Assembly (NCBI GenBank): GCA_020438105.1
Contig: JAGQVE010000021.1
Span: 1 to 64,000 of the forward strand
DNA from: Bacteroidales bacterium
GTDB taxonomy: Bacteria; Bacteroidota; Bacteroidia; Bacteroidales; JAADJA01
Reading direction: 5' to 3'
Length of the DNA stretch: 64,000 nucleotides
Shown: positions 1 through 9,043 of the stretch, in pieces
Position numbering within the stretch: the first letter of the stretch is position 1
How the letters are laid out: the number at the start of each line of letters is the position of its first letter
The notes under the pieces: generated by a model
The model's input: the letters and a program-made list of their open reading frames with translations, nothing else
Database searches by the model: none
Told to the model about the DNA's origin: nothing
Position numbers and translations under genes: made by a program

Positions 1-408
1 TGTAGCATTTTCACCATCAATCCTTACTATTTTATCACCAGCCATAATTCCCAGCTTTTCGGCAGGTCCGCCCCGTACTGGTGAAATTACCAAAATGGTA
101 TCCTTGTATATTTGAAAGGAAATACCAATTCCCTCAAAAATACCTTCCAGCGGTTCCGTAGCATTTTGAAGGTCTTTTTTAGAGATATACTGAGAGTGGG
201 GATCAAGCTCTTTCAGAACCGAAATGATCGCCTTTTCAACCAAATCAGGTTCATCAATGGAATCAACGTAAGCAAAGTTGATCATTTGTAAAACAGATGC
301 AAACTTTTGGGATGTAGAACGGGGATCAAATCCCTGGGCATACATATATCGACCCTGCCCCATAAAAAGGCACAGAAGCACAAAAAATCGCATCATCCGG
401 ATCGACAT
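1..408 (-). CDS. S41-family C-terminal processing peptidase, N-terminal part (runs off the window)
   Basis: Only the first 136 or so residues lie in the window; the frame is open through base 1. The N-terminus is a signal peptide (hydrophobic FFVLLCLF followed by a YAQ end). A helical segment follows with the family's LDPHSQYI sequence, then the start of a PDZ domain (FEGIGISF, and SPVRGGPAEKLGIMAGDKI). This order is typical of CTP proteases, which trim exported proteins in the periplasm. The catalytic Ser/Lys part would lie upstream of the window start and is not visible. ATG codons at 417, 408 and 396 share the frame, so the exact start is uncertain. A second, complete S41 protease sits at 47344-49026, so this one is a paralogue. 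Confidence 0.85.
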   Translation of the reverse strand, partial: MSIRMMRFFVLLCLFMGQGRYMYAQGFDPRSTSQKFASVLQMINFAYVDSIDEPDLVEKAIISVLKELDPHSQYISKKDLQNATEPLEGIFEGIGISFQIYKDTILVISPVRGGPAEKLGIMAGDKIVRIDGENAT

Positions 409-574
409 AATTCTCATTTGATAAAAACCTTAGCTTGCTTTAACGATAAGCCAGTAGAAGTGTTTTGTTAAGAGCCAAATTATTCAATTGCTCCGTATAC
501 GGCAAGTTTCAATTAAAGATTACTTTTGACCCAAAAATATTTAATCGCCTAACTGTGCTGACAAACTTCACTAA

Positions 575-759
575 ATGAAGCTATTAAAGGGAACATATAC
601 AGAAGCCGAGCACCATACCTTTAATTTACACCTGGCCTATTCAATTATTGAAGGGATCATTTTGGGTGTTTTGGCTTTGAATGAGTTTGTACTGATCAAA
701 AGTTTGCACGGAACAAATCTGCAGATCGGTGTGCTTTTTCAGCTCAGCATGCTGGTTTT
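575..759 (+). pseudogene. MFS transporter, N-terminal fragment cut off by the Mu-like element
   Basis: This reads as the first 61-62 residues of a membrane transporter, with a first helix (SIIEGIILGVLALNEFVLI) and the start of a second (VLFQLSMLVF). The frame then enters the mobile element and stops at 778. The missing remainder is found in the same frame at 7934-9043. Joining base 759 to 7939, or 761 to 7935, gives an uninterrupted protein reading LSMLVF(VF)LLFINEFIKR. The fragment is too short to transport anything, so the gene is inactive unless the element excises. The start ATG at 575 is the first in frame; the upstream gene (S41 peptidase) diverges from it. Confidence 0.85.
755..759. 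repeat. Candidate target-site duplication, left copy
   Basis: GTTTT at 755-759 is repeated at 7934-7938 on the other side of the element. Deleting one copy plus the element restores the transporter frame. The neighbourhood is T-rich, so a chance match is possible, and TTTG at 758-761/7931-7934 is a rival 4-bp duplication. Confidence 0.5.
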
Positions 760-910
760 TGTATGGGGCAGTATTTAAATAAGTGAACATTAGTAGGGAT
801 ATATTTTTGCTGAAAAAACATTAATATCAGCTATTTAAGCTGTTTTTAATGAACCAAAAAAAAATATTGAAAAGGTGAACGTTCTTTCATTTATTTGCAT
901 TGAACTTTTA
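760..910 (+). repeat. Left end of the Mu-like element with transposase-binding-type boxes
   Basis: TGAAC boxes in the same orientation lie at 784-788, 850-854, 876-880 and 901-905. The third is embedded in the 23-bp sequence (861-883) repeated in inverse at 7878-7900. The wide gap between the first and second boxes, followed by close ones, resembles the L1 / L2-L3 layout of phage Mu. That these are transposase-binding sites is inferred from position and symmetry. Bases 906-963 hold nothing recognisable before the repressor gene ends. Confidence 0.6.
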
Positions 911-963
911 TTTTGGAAGGAAAAAAGAGGCTAAAGTTTTACTTTTCTTTGCCGTAATTATCT

Positions 964-1755
964 CTAAGCTTTTGATTTGCCACCAATTAAATGGTCTTTC
1001 TGTTCACTCATATAGTCTACAAGATAAGATAACCTTTGATACCAGAAGTCAATATCACTCTTTAAATGTAATAACTTTAATATTATCTCTAACTTATTAT
1101 CACTAAGACCTTTAAAGTCTTCTTTCCATCCTTTTTCATAAAGTTCAAAGAGTTTGTCAAAAGTATCTTGTTGAGGCTTTTTGTCAATTGATATTTGACT
1201 TGAATTTAATACATTAACCAGGTTTAAATAACTCTGATAAACAGTTCTAAGCTTATCAAATTCAACGTTGTACAAAGCGTATACTCTTGGATAGGTCATT
1301 GTGTCATAATACATAATCTGGAGATAAACATAGGATTCTTTTTCAATATCTCCATAACCAAGGTAAGAATATGTATCTAAAAATTCCTTATTTCTTGAAA
1401 TTATGTCTCTTTTTGCAGAAAATGAACTATTTAACTGTCCTTTAATATTTTTATCTCCCAAATCGGATTTCTTATTGTTTTTATCAGATTGGTTCATGTA
1501 AGGTTCAAAATTGGTGTTCATTAAAAAATCATCATTTGATATAAACATCTCACCTGTACCCCTCAGCAAATAATTAGGATCAACATTAAAAGTATTGATT
1601 ATTTTCCCCAAAAGATCAAATCCCGGTTTGTTTCTGCCGTTCAGGATATTGTATATTACAGTAGGTGCAACATCCATTTTTGCGCAGAACTCAGCTTTTG
1701 AAATATTCAAAGCTTTAATCACATTGTGAATCCTATTCCCTATTGTGTTTTCCAT
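964..1755 (-). CDS. XRE-type repressor of the Mu-like element (c-repressor position)
   Basis: The 263-residue protein starts with a helix-turn-helix domain at about residues 5-65. Its recognition region is SKAEFCAKMDVAPTVIYNIL, and NTFNVDPNYLLRGTGEMF is a common XRE-domain ending. The remaining 190 residues are charged and not recognised; I see no S24 self-cleavage motif. The gene is divergent from the early operon, which is where Mu-like elements keep their lysogeny repressor, so it probably silences 1862 onward. I chose the ATG at 1755 because MENTIGNRI begins the HTH fold; the frame stays open to about 1869, which would overlap the divergent gene. Confidence 0.75.
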   Translation of the reverse strand: MENTIGNRIHNVIKALNISKAEFCAKMDVAPTVIYNILNGRNKPGFDLLGKIINTFNVDPNYLLRGTGEMFISNDDFLMNTNFEPYMNQSDKNNKKSDLGDKNIKGQLNSSFSAKRDIISRNKEFLDTYSYLGYGDIEKESYVYLQIMYYDTMTYPRVYALYNVEFDKLRTVYQSYLNLVNVLNSSQISIDKKPQQDTFDKLFELYEKGWKEDFKGLSDNKLEIILKLLHLKSDIDFWYQRLSYLVDYMSEQKDHLIGGKSKA

Positions 1756-1861
1756 ATAAATCATTTGTTGAAAAAAAATTGTCAAATATTTTGCTACTAT
1801 AATCAAATGATATATATTTGCAATATCAAACGTGTACAAAGATATATAAAAACTTAAAGAA
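1756..1861. promoter_or_regulatory. Divergent control region between repressor and early genes
   Basis: On the plus strand, TTTG at 1790-1793 and TATATTTG at 1813-1820 are separated by 19 bp and match the Bacteroidota -33/-7 promoter pattern; this would drive the early genes from 1862. CAAAT...ATTTG (1804-1820) overlaps the -7 box as an inverted repeat and a similar CAAATATTTTG lies at 1783-1793. Both are plausible repressor operators. On the minus strand TATCTTTG (1844-1837) could be the -7 box for the repressor. All of this is inferred from motifs. Confidence 0.45.
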
Positions 1862-2074
1862 ATGTTCACAATTGAAGAAAAAAAAGCAATAAAATCAAAG
1901 CTACCTCATGGATCATTGAGGCTAATTGCTAAAATGGCCGGTGTATCCCCTCAGTCTGTTGCTGGGTGGTTTAGTGATAGGGTTAAAAGTAGTAAGAAGA
2001 TTGAAGACGCTGCAATTTCCCTGTTAAGGAAATGTAAAGAAGACAAAGAAAGAAAACTTGCCGGGCTTCTCTGA
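1862..2074 (+). CDS. Small DNA-binding protein, Ner/Cro-like early regulator
   Basis: This 70-residue basic protein contains a helix-turn-helix (about residues 18-45: SLRLIAKMAGVSPQSVAGWF). It is the first gene of the rightward operon, two bases before the transposase gene. In Mu that place belongs to Ner, a Cro-like negative regulator of the repressor and early promoters. I assign a regulatory role from the HTH and the position; the sequence itself is not close to a named family that I recognise. Confidence 0.6.
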   Translation: MFTIEEKKAIKSKLPHGSLRLIAKMAGVSPQSVAGWFSDRVKSSKKIEDAAISLLRKCKEDKERKLAGLL

Positions 2075-2076
2075 TT

Positions 2077-4113
2077 ATGAAACTCTACGTTGATGTAAAT
2101 AAGCAGCTTTGGTTGAGTTATGAATACCTTAAAAATACTGGTATTTCAGAAAATTCTATTAAAAACTGGACTAAAAGAAACATTGGCTCATACAAGTACA
2201 TCAATGGCCGTACATATATTAACTACGACACTATACCAACACCAACCCGCAAAAAGCTATATGGAAAGGGAACACTAATACATGATGCCAAGCAGGAACA
2301 AAACAATAACATGGAGAACATGTTTTACAACCACCTTAACCAGGCATACTCAGGCATAGCAGCCGCCAAATGGCGCAACCTGATCCACGATGCTTACCCA
2401 CAGCTTGACGATGAAAGCCTCACTAACTTCTCTAAACGTGCCGCAGTTATTGAAAAAGCCCTCAATCTGAACCCACACATTCATGGAAACCTTCAAAAGA
2501 TATTCAATTCCTACCTTCGTATTTACCCAGGAGTATATTCCAAGAAAAGCCGCTTTAGTATGATGCTTACCAATGCCAGGGAAAAAGGTATTATTCACGC
2601 GGCTGTTGATAAAAGATTGTTAAATAAGCGGGAACCGGTTCACGGAGATTTAGTTCGTTTCTGGGCCGCTTTTATCCTGAACCATAACAAAGCCTTTACC
2701 CTTAAGATGTCGTATGAAACTTTCGCGGACACGTGCCAGAACCAGGGAATAAAATCACCCTCATACGATTGGTTTTTAAGATTTTATTACGATAACAGAA
2801 ATACCATTGACCAAAACCGATACGGGCAAATGGAGTTTGAAAAGTTAAACCAAAACTATGCGAAGATCATACCGGCGCTATATGCCGGGGATCAGTGGCA
2901 GATGGATGGTTGGCGTATCCCTGTTTATTGTAAAAAATACAGCGATAACGGTAGAGCCGTTTATTTTGTAACATACAACCTTTTCGCGGTACTGGATGCT
3001 CACAGCCGCAAGATCGTTGGGTACTGGATTTCGGAAACAGAGAATACACAAAGCATTTTAAAGGGCATTGAAATGGCGGTTAAAGAGACTTTAACACTGC
3101 CTTACGAAATTGTTGCCGATAACCATTCATTCAACAAAACTAAAGAAGCCGGGAACATTAAAGAGGAAATGGACAAGCTGGGAGTTACCTGGACAATTGA
3201 CAGCAACCCGCGTCGTAAATCCATCCTGGAACGCGCATTTAAAACCCTGGGAGAAAAGTTTTATAAAAAGCAGTATGGTTACATTGGCCAGGGTATCCGG
3301 TCAAAGGAAAAAGGAGGAATCACACAGCAGGAATTGAGGGATATATATACCAGGCCGGATAATTTCCTGACCTATCATCAGATAGTAGCCTTAACCGTTT
3401 CAATTGTAGAACAATACAATTCAACGAAAATTAAAAAGTTAAGTGATTCACCTAATAACCTGTATGCGAAAAGCGAACAGCCCCACTCCATAAAAGTAGA
3501 TGATTATAAGCGTTTGCAGTTATTTACCCTCAAAACTGAATACAAAGTATCATATGGCCAGATCACCATTCAGCGCGGTTCACATAAATATGAATACCAG
3601 TTACCGGCAGAATATGCACAAGCCTATAACAATCAGACTGTAACGGTAAGGTATGCAGATTATGACATCATCTACCTTTATGACCTCCTAACGGATGAAC
3701 CAATTTGCAACGTGAACCAAAAACATGCTATTCACGGGGCAAAGGCAAACCAAACGGATAGAGACCGGGAGTTACTTTATAAAAACAAAGGACGCATCCG
3801 GGGAATTAATACCAGGACACGGAAACAAAAGAGCCTTTGGCTTGAAAAGGCTGCTTCGATTGATCCCAACGCTTACGAAACGGTCAACTCTATGACTACC
3901 CCAAAAGTCATCCAGGAAGAACTTAGAACCAACTATGAAGTACGGCGAAAAACCATTGACCAGGGGGTAAATCCTGACACTGTACCGGATTGGCCGAATG
4001 TATCTGAGATGTTAGACCCTGCTATGAAACCACCCAAAGAAAAAGAGAACCGACACCCATTCCATGTCGGGGAGGGAACCATGAAAAAGATAAAAGTTAA
4101 TATGGAGAAATAA
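2077..4113 (+). CDS. MuA-type DDE transposase
   Basis: The 678-residue length is close to that of phage Mu transposase (663). The N-terminus (about residues 1-65) is a winged-helix-like DNA-binding segment containing ISENSIKNWTKRNIG. The integrase-core domain spans about residues 260-430. Likely catalytic acids are D277 (in DQWQMDGW), D348 (in IVADNHSF) and E385 (in RRKSILERAF), with 36 residues between the second and third, as in DDE enzymes. A beta-barrel-type domain (about 470-560) and a basic tail follow. It would join the element ends to new target DNA with the help of the downstream ATPase. The reading frame is intact and all three acids are present, so it may be active. Confidence 0.92.
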   Translation: MKLYVDVNKQLWLSYEYLKNTGISENSIKNWTKRNIGSYKYINGRTYINYDTIPTPTRKKLYGKGTLIHDAKQEQNNNMENMFYNHLNQAYSGIAAAKWRNLIHDAYPQLDDESLTNFSKRAAVIEKALNLNPHIHGNLQKIFNSYLRIYPGVYSKKSRFSMMLTNAREKGIIHAAVDKRLLNKREPVHGDLVRFWAAFILNHNKAFTLKMSYETFADTCQNQGIKSPSYDWFLRFYYDNRNTIDQNRYGQMEFEKLNQNYAKIIPALYAGDQWQMDGWRIPVYCKKYSDNGRAVYFVTYNLFAVLDAHSRKIVGYWISETENTQSILKGIEMAVKETLTLPYEIVADNHSFNKTKEAGNIKEEMDKLGVTWTIDSNPRRKSILERAFKTLGEKFYKKQYGYIGQGIRSKEKGGITQQELRDIYTRPDNFLTYHQIVALTVSIVEQYNSTKIKKLSDSPNNLYAKSEQPHSIKVDDYKRLQLFTLKTEYKVSYGQITIQRGSHKYEYQLPAEYAQAYNNQTVTVRYADYDIIYLYDLLTDEPICNVNQKHAIHGAKANQTDRDRELLYKNKGRIRGINTRTRKQKSLWLEKAASIDPNAYETVNSMTTPKVIQEELRTNYEVRRKTIDQGVNPDTVPDWPNVSEMLDPAMKPPKEKENRHPFHVGEGTMKKIKVNMEK

Positions 4114-4140
4114 AAAGGCGCTGAAAATCAACGCCCTTTC
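4114..4140 (+). terminator. Weak hairpin between transposase and ATPase genes
   Basis: AAAGGCG (4114-4120) can pair with CGCCCTTT (4132-4139) with one bulged base, directly after the transposase stop. There is no clear U-run, so this may be an attenuator or mRNA-stability element that lowers ATPase expression rather than a true terminator. Confidence 0.3.
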
Positions 4141-4159
4141 ATTAATAAAAAAATGTGGT

Positions 4160-4990
4160 ATGACAAAAGTAAACAAAAACCTGGAACTCAAAACGGCAAT
4201 CAATGACTATTGCCGGTTAAAGGCGATCAGTAAAAACGAGTTTTCAGTACAGATAGGGGTAAATTCCGCTTATCTGTCTAAAATTGAGAAAGAAAAGTTT
4301 GTTGGAATCTCAACGGCTGTACTTACAAAAATATGGTCTGCTATCAAGTTACGATCCGTTACGGATGTGTTTGATACAGCGGATCATGTTAGTGTGTTTA
4401 GGCAATGCGATAAAACGCGGAGGTTTAAACTAATGACCGGAATGATAGCTGATACCGGTATGGGCAAAACAACATCTCTGAGGGCTTATACAATGCAGGA
4501 AAACGTGTTTTACGTGCAAGTGGATAAAACCATGAACGCTAAAAGGCTGCTAAGTGCCATTTTGCGTGAAATGCGTGTATCATTTGACGGCAACATACAT
4601 GAGATCATGTTAAAAATAGCCGAAACACTGAACCGGGTTGAAAACCCCCTATTGATCATTGACGAAGCCGGGAAACTCAATCATGCAATGATCTTGTATT
4701 TACATGATTTGAGAGAATACACCAAAGCTAATTGCGGGATACTGTTATCAGGTATGCCATATTTTAAGACAAACCTGGTTAAGCAATCCGATAGACAAAA
4801 AGAAGGCTATGCAGAGTTCTTGCGCCGGGTCAATATATGGCATGAGCTGAGGGGACTTAGCCGCAAAGAGGTAGAGTTTATTTGCCAGGATAATGGTATT
4901 ACAGGGCAATATTCCGCCTATTATGGATTACGCTTTGCCGACCTTATGAACAAGATATTATTGGAACAAATTACAAACAAAATAAATTAA
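4160..4990 (+). CDS. MuB-like AAA ATPase, transposition target selector
   Basis: The 276-residue protein begins with an HTH-like domain (about residues 15-60: SKNEFSVQIGVNSAYLSKIE), as phage Mu B protein does. An ATPase domain follows, with a Walker A motif ADTGMGKTTS (K103) and a Walker B motif LLIIDEAG (D168, E169). MuB proteins bind DNA as ATP filaments, deliver target DNA to the transposase and confer target immunity. The position right after the transposase gene fits. No key residue is missing. AAA_22/TniB-type ATPases are the nearest alternatives, but the HTH plus the Mu-like neighbours favour MuB. Confidence 0.9.
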   Translation: MTKVNKNLELKTAINDYCRLKAISKNEFSVQIGVNSAYLSKIEKEKFVGISTAVLTKIWSAIKLRSVTDVFDTADHVSVFRQCDKTRRFKLMTGMIADTGMGKTTSLRAYTMQENVFYVQVDKTMNAKRLLSAILREMRVSFDGNIHEIMLKIAETLNRVENPLLIIDEAGKLNHAMILYLHDLREYTKANCGILLSGMPYFKTNLVKQSDRQKEGYAEFLRRVNIWHELRGLSRKEVEFICQDNGITGQYSAYYGLRFADLMNKILLEQITNKIN

Positions 4991-4994
4991 AGTT

Positions 4995-5246
4995 ATGAAA
5001 ACAGCAGGTATTACTTTTAATTATGATGAAAAACATAACAGGCCAGTAAGTTGCACTGTTACAATTATGGGCGATCATGATGAATACATGGGTAAGATCA
5101 GATCATTAGTAAATTTATTACGAAGTCTTGATGAAAACATGCTTTATAAACCCGAAATTGTCGATATATGCGACCTGATCCTCGACATGTTACCCTCATC
5201 CGACCAACTCATTGTAAATAATCCAAACAAAACCCCCGCGCTATGA
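4995..5246 (+). CDS. Small unknown protein of the Mu-like element
   Basis: This 83-residue ORF starts four bases after the ATPase gene and its stop overlaps the next start (ATGA at 5243-5246), so it is translated as part of the operon. The N-terminal half looks like a short beta-rich segment (GITFNYDEKHNRPVSCTVTI) and the rest like amphipathic helix. I do not recognise it. In Mu this place holds small early genes such as host nuclease inhibitors, but nothing in the sequence supports a specific role. Confidence 0.6.
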   Translation: MKTAGITFNYDEKHNRPVSCTVTIMGDHDEYMGKIRSLVNLLRSLDENMLYKPEIVDICDLILDMLPSSDQLIVNNPNKTPAL

Positions 5247-5686
5247 ATAAGGCAAAAAGCATAGCAACACCAGCACAGATCAAGGCAATCCATGCCATAT
5301 TGAATAAACATGGACTGCTGGACCATAAAGCTGAATATGTTTCGGCGATTACCAACGGTAGAACCGAAAGCACTAAAGACTTAACACGTCGGGAGGTTAG
5401 GGAATTCTTTTCAATTTTTGAAGATGACAGCCAAACAGAGGCCAGGCGCAACGCTATTTATACTGCTATTTGGAAAATCGCCTGGAATATGGGAATAATT
5501 TACGGGATCAGTAAGGAAGATTACGAAATGAATAAGGCAAAGCTGAACACATTTTGCAAAGAGCGTGGAACCGTAAAGAAAAATATTACACAAATGAACC
5601 TTGCAGAACTCAATAAGACCAGGCGACAGTTTGAAGCTATGTATAGGAGATTTAAAGAAAGAAAGGAGTATGTCGTACAATCGTAA
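5243..5686 (+). CDS. GemA/gp16-like early protein
   Basis: The 147-residue protein starts ATPAQIKAIHAILNKHGL, continues with a charged region containing DLTRREVREFF, and ends in a basic helical part. This matches the layout of the Mu gp16/GemA family (DUF1018-type), which has an N-terminal segment beginning with a TP.Q...I motif and is found between the B gene and the middle genes. GemA is reported to modulate host gene expression; its mechanism is poorly known. It overlaps both neighbours by a few bases, supporting translational coupling. The family call is by eye and by position. Confidence 0.6.
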   Translation: MNKAKSIATPAQIKAIHAILNKHGLLDHKAEYVSAITNGRTESTKDLTRREVREFFSIFEDDSQTEARRNAIYTAIWKIAWNMGIIYGISKEDYEMNKAKLNTFCKERGTVKKNITQMNLAELNKTRRQFEAMYRRFKERKEYVVQS

Positions 5687-5867
5687 AAACCTACTCCTTA
5701 AAATTCTGGACATCCAGGAATTGGTTATGAAGTATCAGAACGATGGATATTCTCAACAATGGATTTATTTGAATATCATTTACCCTAAATATCCTATATC
5801 AAGGGCAACGTACTACAATTATTTAAATACCAATGCCAGGAAAGAGATAAAAGAATTAAATCAGTAA
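5670..5867 (+). CDS. Small HTH-like protein at the Mor position
   Basis: The ATG at 5670 gives a 65-residue protein overlapping the GemA-like gene by 17 bases in another frame. A purine-rich AAAGGAG (5662-5668) lies just before it, very close to the start. The C-terminal half contains ISRATYYNYLNTNARKEI, which looks like the recognition part of a helix-turn-helix. In Mu the middle-operon activator Mor follows gemA, but this protein is half the size of Mor, so I only note the shared location. A transcription role is inference. Confidence 0.5.
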   Translation: MSYNRKNLLLKILDIQELVMKYQNDGYSQQWIYLNIIYPKYPISRATYYNYLNTNARKEIKELNQ

Positions 5868-5888
5868 GATACTTAATACGATACATAA

Positions 5889-6911
5889 ATGACAAAAAGG
5901 AAAAACAAAGAATTTGTAATCAGCGATGAAAGCCGGAATAGTTTCGGTTTCAAAATTTTAACATCGGGTATAATGCTGGAAAAATTCATCCGTAATCCGG
6001 TGATGTTTTACAACCATGATCGCCAAAGTGGAGTAATTGGTCGTTGGGAAAATATCCATATTAAAAACAAAAAATTGCTTGCTACTCCTGTATTTGATGA
6101 GGCCGACGAATTAGGGAAAAAGATAGCTCAAAAGGTAGAATCAGGGTTTATTCGTGCAGCATCTATTGGTATTGAGATACTCAATATTGATGAGATGGGT
6201 AAAACAGTTCTATCCTGTGAGCTAATTGAATGTTCAATTTGTGATGTTCCAAGTAATGAAAACGCGCTAATGTTGTATCAAGATGGTGAACAGGTAAGCG
6301 ATCAAAAAGTATATGCAAATCTCAATTTAATTAAAAACAAAATTCCTATGAAAGACAAAGATGTAAAAAGGATCATTGAAGCACTGGGATTAGATCCTGA
6401 TGCTACCATTGACGACATTATATCTGCTATAACTGCACTTTCGGGAGAGTCACCGAATCAGATTGTCGAAAATGCAATTAAGATGAATGTCGTAAAAGCC
6501 TACGAAAAAAGCGGGCTATTGAAAATGGCTAAAACAGATTTTCAGTCATTTGCAACTTATCTACATGACCGGAAAATAAAGTACCTGGAAGAAGTCCGTT
6601 CATTCAGTACCGAGTTAATTAACAAAGCTGTTAGAGACGGACGTTTGCCTTATCCAGTCAATTCCAAGAGGGGTAAGGCGTTTTGGTATGCGGCTCTGGA
6701 AAATGATTTTGAAGGCGGTAAGTTTGTCCTGGAGAACCTGACTAAGCGGACTGTTTTATCTGATATGATCAAAGGCTTTGGGCAGGGAGTTGATAGCAAT
6801 GAATGGACACTGGACGACTACCGGAAAAAAGCCCCTCATAAATTGGCCGCTGATCCGGCACTGTATCAAAGATTGTTAGAGGAAGATAAAATTTCAAAAC
6901 AAAACAAATAA
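5889..6911 (+). CDS. Prohead protease with scaffold-like C-terminus (Mu gpI-like)
   Basis: Residues 1-130 form an HK97/Mu-type S78 prohead protease domain. The likely catalytic His is H43 (in FYNHDRQSG) and the likely Ser is S92 (in FIRAASIGI). Residues 154-340 are charged and helical and end in WTLDDYRKKAPHKLAADP, which resembles the C-terminus of Mu gpI. In Mu that part is also made alone from an internal start as scaffold protein gpZ. An in-frame ATG at 6348 (M154) lies exactly at this domain boundary. Such proteins assemble and then process capsid precursors. The next gene, 13 bases on, is the capsid protein. Portal and terminase genes, which normally come before, are missing. Confidence 0.85.
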   Translation: MTKRKNKEFVISDESRNSFGFKILTSGIMLEKFIRNPVMFYNHDRQSGVIGRWENIHIKNKKLLATPVFDEADELGKKIAQKVESGFIRAASIGIEILNIDEMGKTVLSCELIECSICDVPSNENALMLYQDGEQVSDQKVYANLNLIKNKIPMKDKDVKRIIEALGLDPDATIDDIISAITALSGESPNQIVENAIKMNVVKAYEKSGLLKMAKTDFQSFATYLHDRKIKYLEEVRSFSTELINKAVRDGRLPYPVNSKRGKAFWYAALENDFEGGKFVLENLTKRTVLSDMIKGFGQGVDSNEWTLDDYRKKAPHKLAADPALYQRLLEEDKISKQNK

Positions 6912-6924
6912 TACTTAATTAATT

Positions 6925-7800
6925 ATGTCAGATTTAAATAAAGAAGTATGGGTAAATCAACTCATGGAGAAATTTTACCCGGATAGCTCATTTTTGAAGC
7001 ATACAAAGGATTTTTCAAGTATGGTTGATAATGATGCTATCAACATTGCAGAAGCCGGTTTAGACCCGGAGGTATTAATTAATAATACTACATATCCGAT
7101 TGAAATTATTCAAAGGATTGACACGCCAATCAGGATTATCCTGGATAAATTTGAGACGAAAAATACACTTATTCGTAGGCCGGATGTGATTGAGTACGCC
7201 TATGATCAACTGGAAAGTGTATTAATGGGGCATAGAGGGACATTAAGGGCAAACACAGCCTTAAAAGCTGCACACGCTTTTGCACCGGCTGGAAATACCG
7301 AAGACACGCCCGTTATCCTTTCCACAGGCGATGTTTATAACGGAAGGAAACGGATGAGTGTTGAGGATGTTTTGGCACTAAAAGAAGCGTTTGATAGTGC
7401 CGATATACCTTTAGAAAATCGTATTTTGGTATTACATCCATACCACGTATCCGACCTGTTAACGTTCGATGTGAAAGCCTTTAAGGATATTACAGATATT
7501 GTAGACGGACAACCAAAGAGGTTTGCCGGATTTGGTATTCTTCAATTTTCAAAGCCTGCATATTTTAATACAACTACATTGCAGAAAATTGCCTTTGGAG
7601 CTGTACCAAGTGTCAACGATTCATTTTCTTCATTCGCGTTTCATGCAGATGAAGTAATGAAGGCAGACGGGGAAGTTTATATGTACATCCGTGAAGACGA
7701 CCCAGAGGAACGCGGCACAATCGTAGGTTTTGACAAACGTTTTATAGCAATGCCTATTAGAAACAAAGGTATTGGAGCGATTGTCAGTGCACCTGAATAA
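6925..7800 (+). CDS. Phage major capsid protein (HK97-like fold, Mu gpT position)
   Basis: The 291-residue protein directly follows the protease/scaffold gene, as Mu T follows I. Length and layout fit a compact HK97-fold capsid protein. They include an N-terminal arm, a region around IDTPIRIILDKFETKNTLIRRP, a helical spine (VEDVLALKEAFDSADIP) followed by RILVLHPYHVSDLL, and a final beta strand near IVGFDKRFIAMPIRNKGIGA. It is the last gene before the terminator and the right end of the element. An encapsulin is an alternative for a lone HK97 shell protein, but the adjacent prohead protease and transposase argue for a phage origin. Confidence 0.75.
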   Translation: MSDLNKEVWVNQLMEKFYPDSSFLKHTKDFSSMVDNDAINIAEAGLDPEVLINNTTYPIEIIQRIDTPIRIILDKFETKNTLIRRPDVIEYAYDQLESVLMGHRGTLRANTALKAAHAFAPAGNTEDTPVILSTGDVYNGRKRMSVEDVLALKEAFDSADIPLENRILVLHPYHVSDLLTFDVKAFKDITDIVDGQPKRFAGFGILQFSKPAYFNTTTLQKIAFGAVPSVNDSFSSFAFHADEVMKADGEVYMYIREDDPEERGTIVGFDKRFIAMPIRNKGIGAIVSAPE

Positions 7801-7825
7801 AAGCTAAATTTTTTATACCACACCA

Positions 7826-7858
7826 GGGGGAGTTTAGAAGTAAGCTTCCCCATTTTTT
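7826..7858 (+). terminator. Rho-independent terminator after the capsid gene
   Basis: GGGGGAG (7826-7832) pairs imperfectly with CTTCCCC (7845-7851) and is followed by a run of six T. It lies 26 bp after the capsid stop, so it probably ends the whole rightward operon just inside the element. Confidence 0.65.
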
Positions 7859-7877
7859 ACGCCAAAAATTTATCATA

Positions 7878-7933
7878 AACGTTCACCTTTTCAATATTTT
7901 TGCGTTCATGTTTTTAATTACAAAAATATATTT
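7878..7933 (-). repeat. Right end of the Mu-like element
   Basis: Bases 7878-7900 are the exact inverse of 861-883. Two TGAAC boxes (minus strand, at 7885-7881 and 7908-7904) lie 23 bp apart, like the close R1-R2 pair of phage Mu. Counting from 7930 inward, the outer box begins after 22 bases, the same as from 762 on the left end. A TGTA (minus strand) at 7922-7919 is a possible alternative terminus but would leave 11 unexplained bases before the target duplication. Confidence 0.6.
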
Positions 7934-9043
7934 GTTTTCCTGCTTTTTATCAATGAATTTATTAAACGAACCGTAAACAAACGAAAGCTCCTTCGATACA
8001 CCGGCTTATTCACAAGAGGGCCTTTGTTTTTATTGCTGTTTTTTCCAAACGACCCGGAGATTTTCCAGGGAACCCTTTTGTACCAGGCCATTTTCCTGGT
8101 GTTGTTTTTTATTTATTATTTCGGAAATACCATCATTTACCCTCTGATAAACCTCTTCCTGAAAAAACAATACGGTCATTCCAATTTCGGGAAACTATAT
8201 GGGATTGCCACCTCGGTGAATAAAATCGTGATGCTGGGCGCCACTTTCGTTTACGGGATTTTACTCGACCGCGACGCTCAGGCCTATCAATACGTTTTTC
8301 CGGTTGTGGCTGTTCTGGGTGTGGTTTCGGTGTTTCTGCTTTCGATGATTCGTTACCAGGAAGATATCAAAAAAAGGCGTGAGCAGTTTTTCCAATCCAT
8401 CCGCCGATCTGCTTCCACCATGGTAGATATTTTAAAAACCAATAAACCTTATTTCCATTTTGAAGTGGGTTTTATGTTTTACGGGTTTGCTTTTATGATC
8501 ACCACCACGGTGATCACCATTTTCCTGGAACGGGCGCTGCATCTCAACTATTCCAGTGTTGCATTTTACAAAAATGCCTATAACATCCTGGCCATTATTT
8601 TGCTTCCATATACCGGAAAGCTGCTCGGGAAAATTGATCCCCGCAAGTTTGCAGTAATCACTTTCGGTTCGCTTACCTTATTCATCTTTTTTATGATGCT
8701 CACTGAGCATTTTCCCATGCACATTACCATTGCCGGGCTCGACCTCTACCTGATGCTTGGCTTTGCCTACCTCTCCTACGGGGTTTTTGCCGCCACCATG
8801 GCGCTACTCTGGTTTATTGGTTCAGCCTATTTTTGCAAAACCGAAGAGGCCGGCGACTATCAATCGGTACATTTGTTTTTAACGGCGGCACGTGCGAGTG
8901 TTGCGCCCTTGTTTGGCGTGTTTTTTTACGAACTGGTCGGTTTTACCTGGACTTTTTTGCTGGCCATCACCTCCTTGCTTGGTGGCATTGGTTTGATGGT
9001 TTGGTCGTACCGGCGGGATAAGAAAGTTGTGAATATTAATTAA
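7934..9043 (+). pseudogene. MFS transporter, C-terminal fragment
   Basis: This is the larger part (about 368 residues) of the transporter interrupted by the Mu-like element. It begins VFLLFINEFIKRTVNKRK, in frame with the fragment at 575, and continues through about nine or ten hydrophobic helices to KKVVNIN. The first start-like codon inside it (TTG at 8024) would give a 339-residue protein missing the first helices. The coding sequence shows no other damage, so the insertion looks recent. The substrate cannot be told. It converges on the methyltransferase gene. Confidence 0.85.

Follow-up and report, generated by a model that had tools for sequence, protein, structure and literature searches.

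How can a Mu-type transposable element persist when the only virion proteins that it encodes are a prohead protease and a capsid protein, and is such an element complete or the residue of a prophage? The question is raised by a locus in a contig from a Bacteroidales bacterium, of which the first 64,000 nucleotides were analyzed (this whole stretch is called the window below).

The limits of the element were fixed with the help of an empty site. The insertion target is a gene encoding an MFS transporter, which is uninterrupted in genome G006 of the same genus, and comparison with this site shows that the transposable element is complete, measures 7,169 bp and occupies positions 762-7930 of the window. 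Fusion of the two flanks at one TTTG restores a gene that equals the G006 gene in length and reading frame, so that the insertion must have duplicated exactly 4 bp. A duplication of 5 bp was rejected, as the fifth base is unequal at both junctions in the window and also at those of the related elements L034 and L049. The initial annotation, which had recognized both ends and a size of about 7.2 kb, is thereby confirmed and made exact. Both termini read 5'-TAT inward. The GTGAAC(A/G)TT repeats next to the left terminus are probably binding sites of the transposase. At the right end, reading inward, GTGAACGTT is found at 7886 and ATGAACGCA at 7909. The features of the element and its borders are the following:

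758-761, no strand: left copy of the target-site duplication TTTG (G006 empty site and junction sequence)
783-894, plus strand: left subterminal GTGAAC(A/G)TT repeats, at 783 and 875 (sequence)
860-883, plus strand: left arm of a 24-bp perfect inverted repeat, AAAAATATTGAAAAGGTGAACGTT
964-1755, minus strand: CI/Mu c-like HTH repressor, 263 aa (Pfam HTH_3 6e-9, phrog_8 2e-16)
1862-2074, plus strand: Ner-like small HTH protein, 70 aa (weak HTH matches; position; homologues in L019, L039 and L041)
2077-4113, plus strand: MuA-type DDE transposase TnpA, 678 aa (phrog_310 1e-41)
4160-4990, plus strand: MuB/TnsC-type AAA ATPase TnpB, 276 aa (phrog_296 1e-40, PADLOC TnsC 1e-10)
4995-5246, plus strand: 83-aa protein with no assigned function (homologue in L039)
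5243-5686, plus strand: GemA-like protein, 147 aa (phrog_14123 1e-7; homologues of relatives at the same place)
5670-5867, plus strand: 65-aa protein with conserved counterparts in compact elements of the capsid type and in full-length phages
5889-6911, plus strand: S78 prohead protease with a C-terminal scaffold-like region, 340 aa (phrog_11321 2e-59)
6925-7800, plus strand: HK97-fold major capsid protein (MCP), 291 aa (phrog_267 9e-10)
7826-7851, plus strand: intrinsic terminator 3' of the MCP gene
7878-7901, minus strand: right arm of the 24-bp inverted repeat
7931-7934, no strand: right copy of the target-site duplication TTTG (G006 empty site and junction sequence)

All genes named in the initial annotation were found, with intact reading frames, short junctions between the plus-strand genes (-17 to +46 bp) and the terminator behind them. 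The element thus contains the MuA-type DDE transposase and MuB-type ATPase that characterize Mu-like transposable phages. The catalytic residues D277, D348 and E385 of TnpA are present and conserved, and TnpB has its Walker motifs. The 65-aa protein matches no family; in other capsid-type compact elements, its homologue is placed after the MCP. An Rfam search gave no match. What the element does not contain are the portal, terminase and tail genes of an autonomous Mu-like phage: gene calls and family searches of 762-7930 detected nothing that would encode a portal, terminase, connector or tail protein, in line with what had been noted at first for portal, terminase and tail genes.

This gene set recurs in relatives, as a search proposed in the initial annotation has now revealed. 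Five complete elements of the capsid type are available, i.e., the one in the window (7,169 bp), L045 (7,172 bp), L040 (7,473 bp), L023 (8,234 bp) and L049 (8,344 bp), in addition to about ten partial elements with the same plan, and the MCPs of these complete and partial elements are 53-68% identical to that of the window. Searching IMG/VR with an alignment of transposases yielded 19 loci, to which a second scan added one more (L140). The shared plan, in which the early module is followed by the protease and the MCP and often by a small ORF, was seen in L040, L045, L047, L048, L049 and L053; a scan with the MCP added L062, L063 and L066, and a whole genome contributed L023. These relatives were retrieved with alignment queries. 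Close-relative scans with a single sequence were insufficient, giving no match among viral contigs for the protease alone and one truncated locus among genome contigs for TnpA. Four of the five complete capsid-type elements are flanked by 4-bp duplications (TTTG, GATT, AATG and CATG), the record of L040 ending at the termini. Including L034, described below, exact ends together with a 4-bp duplication were found for the window element, L034, L045, L049 and L023; for L041, L047 and L055, the position of the right end could not be established. By their record names, L040 (IMG 2899584989), L045 (2531839272) and L063 (2517434010) seem to derive from single genomes and not from metagenomes.

Some records deserve separate mention. 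In IMG/VR, the L040 record (1-7473) begins and ends exactly at the element termini, and that of L052 (1-10542), a tail-type element, stops 4-5 bp beyond them. Such limits are expected from an assembler for elements that are present at multiple sites, collapsed from multiple copies or packaged, and are no proof of any of these. In L067 (583-2248), the protease is cut short and the MCP misses some 93 residues at its N-terminus; a tail-completion protein and the small ORF come next, and this is probably a decayed copy. L020 (15588-18330) has TnpA and TnpB of the same broad family, apparently with no virion gene nearby, and is possibly a minimal version of the element. L130 (identical to the L061 record) is 16.4 kb in length and contains an MCP and an S78 protease of the compact clade. 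Beside them lie opposite-strand phage replication genes (ParB-like, helicase and recombination) and a TerS-like gene, with no Mu module, portal or large terminase, so that L130 may be a satellite of another, non-Mu kind that uses the same head. Lastly, L103 and L104 (in G920 and G1031) have a ClpP-type protease and an MCP. In L103, lysis and tape-measure-like genes lie nearby and the stretch examined holds neither terminase nor portal; the two may represent another type of reduced prophage.

The relationship between compact elements and full-length phages was addressed with two trees. In the MCP tree, with 12 compact and 25 full-length sequences labeled by architecture alone, a single label change separates both groups (support 91/84), compared to a mean of 10.4 changes after label shuffling, in which none of 500 replicates was as low as one. 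The TnpA tree, with 23 compact and 10 full-length sequences, likewise requires one change (support 100); its full-length set includes L072, L073, L078 and L079, four phages with some of the closest MCPs to those of the compact elements. As both trees split compact from full-length sequences, compactness is a heritable state of long standing. Read as unrooted trees, the topologies are consistent with a single origin of the compact elements. The contigs had been retrieved with queries from compact elements, and a rare full-length member may have escaped detection. Between compact elements, the MCP gene has a dN of 0.15-0.27 with saturated dS (NG86); for L062 and L063, where dS is measurable, omega is 0.12. 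By these codon comparisons, the MCP is under strong purifying constraint over a great divergence. An MCP search within the host's family, in which all genomes belong to the same genus, gave no relative, and hence no short-range dN/dS could be obtained. The MCPs of L062 and L063 are 77% identical and their TnpAs only 24%, which indicates that the capsid module has either been exchanged between backbones or changes far more slowly.

Within the same transposase clade, ten sister elements carry another cargo (L034, L041, L043, L044, L046, L050, L052, L055, L056 and L057). They have no capsid gene, but a tape measure protein, a protein of 216-224 aa, sometimes a protease-like gene and other pieces, including a baseplate hub in L043. 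They measure 10-13 kb where complete: L034, of 12,620 bp, lies inside an M20 peptidase gene with the duplication CGTC, and the L052 element has 10,533 bp. HMM searches detected a large terminase on none of the contigs of the compact transposase clade and a portal on a single one, L050. The initial annotation had considered that portal, terminase and tail genes might be present in every transposase relative; this is not the case, and several of these contigs are complete with both ends. A sister group with tail genes and no capsid shows that head-making is not what unites the lineage, which counts against the proposal made below. Head and tail cargo sets are intermixed on the TnpA tree, with 5-6 changes, from which it follows that cargo has been swapped and is modular.

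The two virion genes themselves have the properties of a working pair. The active-site residues His43 and Ser92 of the S78 protease are present and invariant. The AlphaFold2 model of the MCP has an HK97 fold (pLDDT 82.5), and in a Foldseek search solved phage capsids are nearest, the best being the capsid of cyanophage A4 (9jwb, 1e-12). The MCP was first annotated as gpT-like; this was not borne out, as the protein matches PHROG MCP families and, weakly, Pfam Phage_capsid_2 rather than the gpT family of Mu. An encapsulin compartment was considered and rejected, since phage MCPs rank first and a cargo gene conserved beside the MCP is absent. The protease found beside closely related MCPs is of either the S78 or the ClpP type, which are unrelated and have similar scaffold-like C-termini; L045, L047, L048, L049, L066 and L023 fall on one side of this split, and the window element (S78), L040, L053, L062 and L063 on the other. 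That the protease can be of either type while the MCPs remain 53-68% identical points to a functioning head-maturation pair kept under selection.

An incomplete virion set on a complete and conserved mobile element is what generally marks a phage satellite, and this identity is the most likely one for the compact lineage. The proposed explanation, held with slightly better than even confidence, is that of an old Bacteroidota lineage of Mu-type satellites that make their own head and rely on a helper for portal, packaging motor and tail. TnpA and TnpB would insert the element with a 4-bp duplication, and the repressor would keep it silent until derepression allows it to multiply by transposition. 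A procapsid of its own would then be formed from the MCP and the protease/scaffold, the helper phage would provide portal, terminase and tail, and the DNA would leave in particles consisting at least partly of the element's coat protein and probably small in size. Alternatively, this coat protein could divert the head assembly of the helper. The gene families that were identified imply transposition, insertion and repression, and the element cannot fill heads alone because it has neither portal nor packaging enzyme. The satellite first suggested is thus supported in part: the sequences demonstrate a complete, recurrent lineage with defined ends and gene set and a constrained MCP instead of a one-off deletion, and from there the derepression cycle, the particles, the helper and the small capsid are inferred. 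To our knowledge, the satellites with heads of their own that have been described encode portal and terminase as well, which counts against a satellite of this type. In the host assembly (90.6% complete), neither a terminase of the related full-length phage family nor a second MCP was found, and the related terminase is also absent from four of five other carriers tested; the same profile does detect a terminase in G723. The helper would thus be an infecting phage or one of another type.

Could the element still be an internally deleted, decaying or defective Mu-like prophage, as the initial annotation offered as its alternative? The transposable phage L003 of Porphyromonas gingivalis shares these genes and their relative order, with early genes, a block on the minus strand (tail completion, neck, portal and terminase), plus-strand protease and MCP, and lysis and tail genes, and an opposite-strand terminase/portal block adjoins protease and MCP in many full-length phages (among L071-L082, L102 and L105-L113). 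Two deletions could yield the present map, and the different structural gene subsets retained by the sister elements would suit such losses. With this gene order, however, both losses would have to be clean, one on either side of the protease-MCP pair. A recent deletion would moreover leave the capsid and transposase nested among those of full-length phages, or broken genes. Instead, the clean split in both trees strongly disfavors this origin, all frames are intact under purifying selection across great divergence, and complete elements of near-equal size occur in different genomes, making a deleted prophage highly improbable.

The main rival is a decoy or defense role, in which the heads of infecting phages would be poisoned by MCP and protease, or would incorporate them, and an unpackaged transposon would protect its host. 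This would explain why one structural module only, and never a packaging motor, is carried, and why sister elements have tail modules instead; the capsid homologue Ccm of SaPIbov5 is indeed able to redirect phage heads (PMC8569155). Yet a decoy needs no active protease, while protease and MCP stay together and the protease has been swapped for an unrelated type rather than lost. Neither protein matches a defense family in PADLOC, and transposition alone accounts for spread within a cell but not between species, so that a weapon is considered rather unlikely. A shell serving another purpose without a helper phage, such as a compartment or a gene-transfer-like particle, is very unlikely. It would agree with the lack of a helper in the host assembly and with the ability of the HK97 fold to form compartments, an encapsulin being listed 50th in the fold search. 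Encapsulins rank far below the phage capsids, however, a prohead protease combined with a scaffold is typical of phage head maturation, and no conserved gene beside the MCP could supply a cargo.

For the satellite lineage, the exchange of head and tail sets suggests a broader principle, as yet tentative and somewhat short of an even chance: one transposition backbone with interchangeable virion modules (a head module of protease and MCP, or a tail module of tape measure, baseplate hub and others), each of which would replace or divert its counterpart in the helper's particle. If a lineage with only coat protein and protease, and sisters with only tail genes, do live in this way, the steps of virion piracy are separable and can be tested singly, and many of the short Mu-like sequences in Bacteroidota that are taken for 'prophage remnants' would be working phage parasites.

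In the open-access literature on Mu-type, transposable, Bacteroidota and capsid satellites, no such element was found described, which is limited evidence, subscription papers and preprints being mostly outside this scope; among the satellite families that a 2024 review lists, there is likewise none moving by Mu-type replicative transposition (PMC11389934). Comparable systems include the capsid-forming PICIs (cfPICIs), small mobile elements that also have their own MCP and head protease. They make their own heads and take the tails of a helper (PMC10945586; PMC10690885), and their capsids form own clades within phage capsids, according to that review (PMC11389934). However, cfPICIs also encode portal, connectors and large and small terminase (PMC10690885), none of which is present in the element. 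Instead of a PICI-type site-specific integrase, the latter has a DDE transposase and Mu-type transposition, with insertion in an MFS gene and a 4-bp duplication. SaPIbov5 is likewise a satellite with a capsid-protein homologue, Ccm, which redirects helper heads (PMC8569155). Whereas Ccm forms pentamers in the helper capsid, the element also has a protease/scaffold and transposes by means of a Mu-type module.

With Mu, the element shares transposability and the order of repressor, Ner, DDE transposase, ATPase and GemA. Mu is about 37 kb in length, has complete virion genes and makes a 5-bp target duplication, in contrast to the 7.2 kb and 4 bp of the element. The transposable siphophages of P. 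gingivalis (e.g., phage007a_Bg4, PP754929) and the hankyphages similarly combine a MuA/MuB-type early module with an adjacent protease and MCP in the same order. They differ by their size of 33-43 kb, their minus-strand terminase/portal block and their lysis and tail genes; their TnpA is about 25% identical and belongs to a separate clade, and their MCPs are 26-28% identical to that of the element. In the hankyphage, a CI-like repressor controls both replicative transposition and virion production (PMC12135933). The termini of the element are similar to the ends of a full-length P. gingivalis transposable phage, TATAGGGC... and TATAATCGGCAAA..., the termini of phage007a being a similar 5'-TATAGGG, and these common terminal sequences would fit a related helper.
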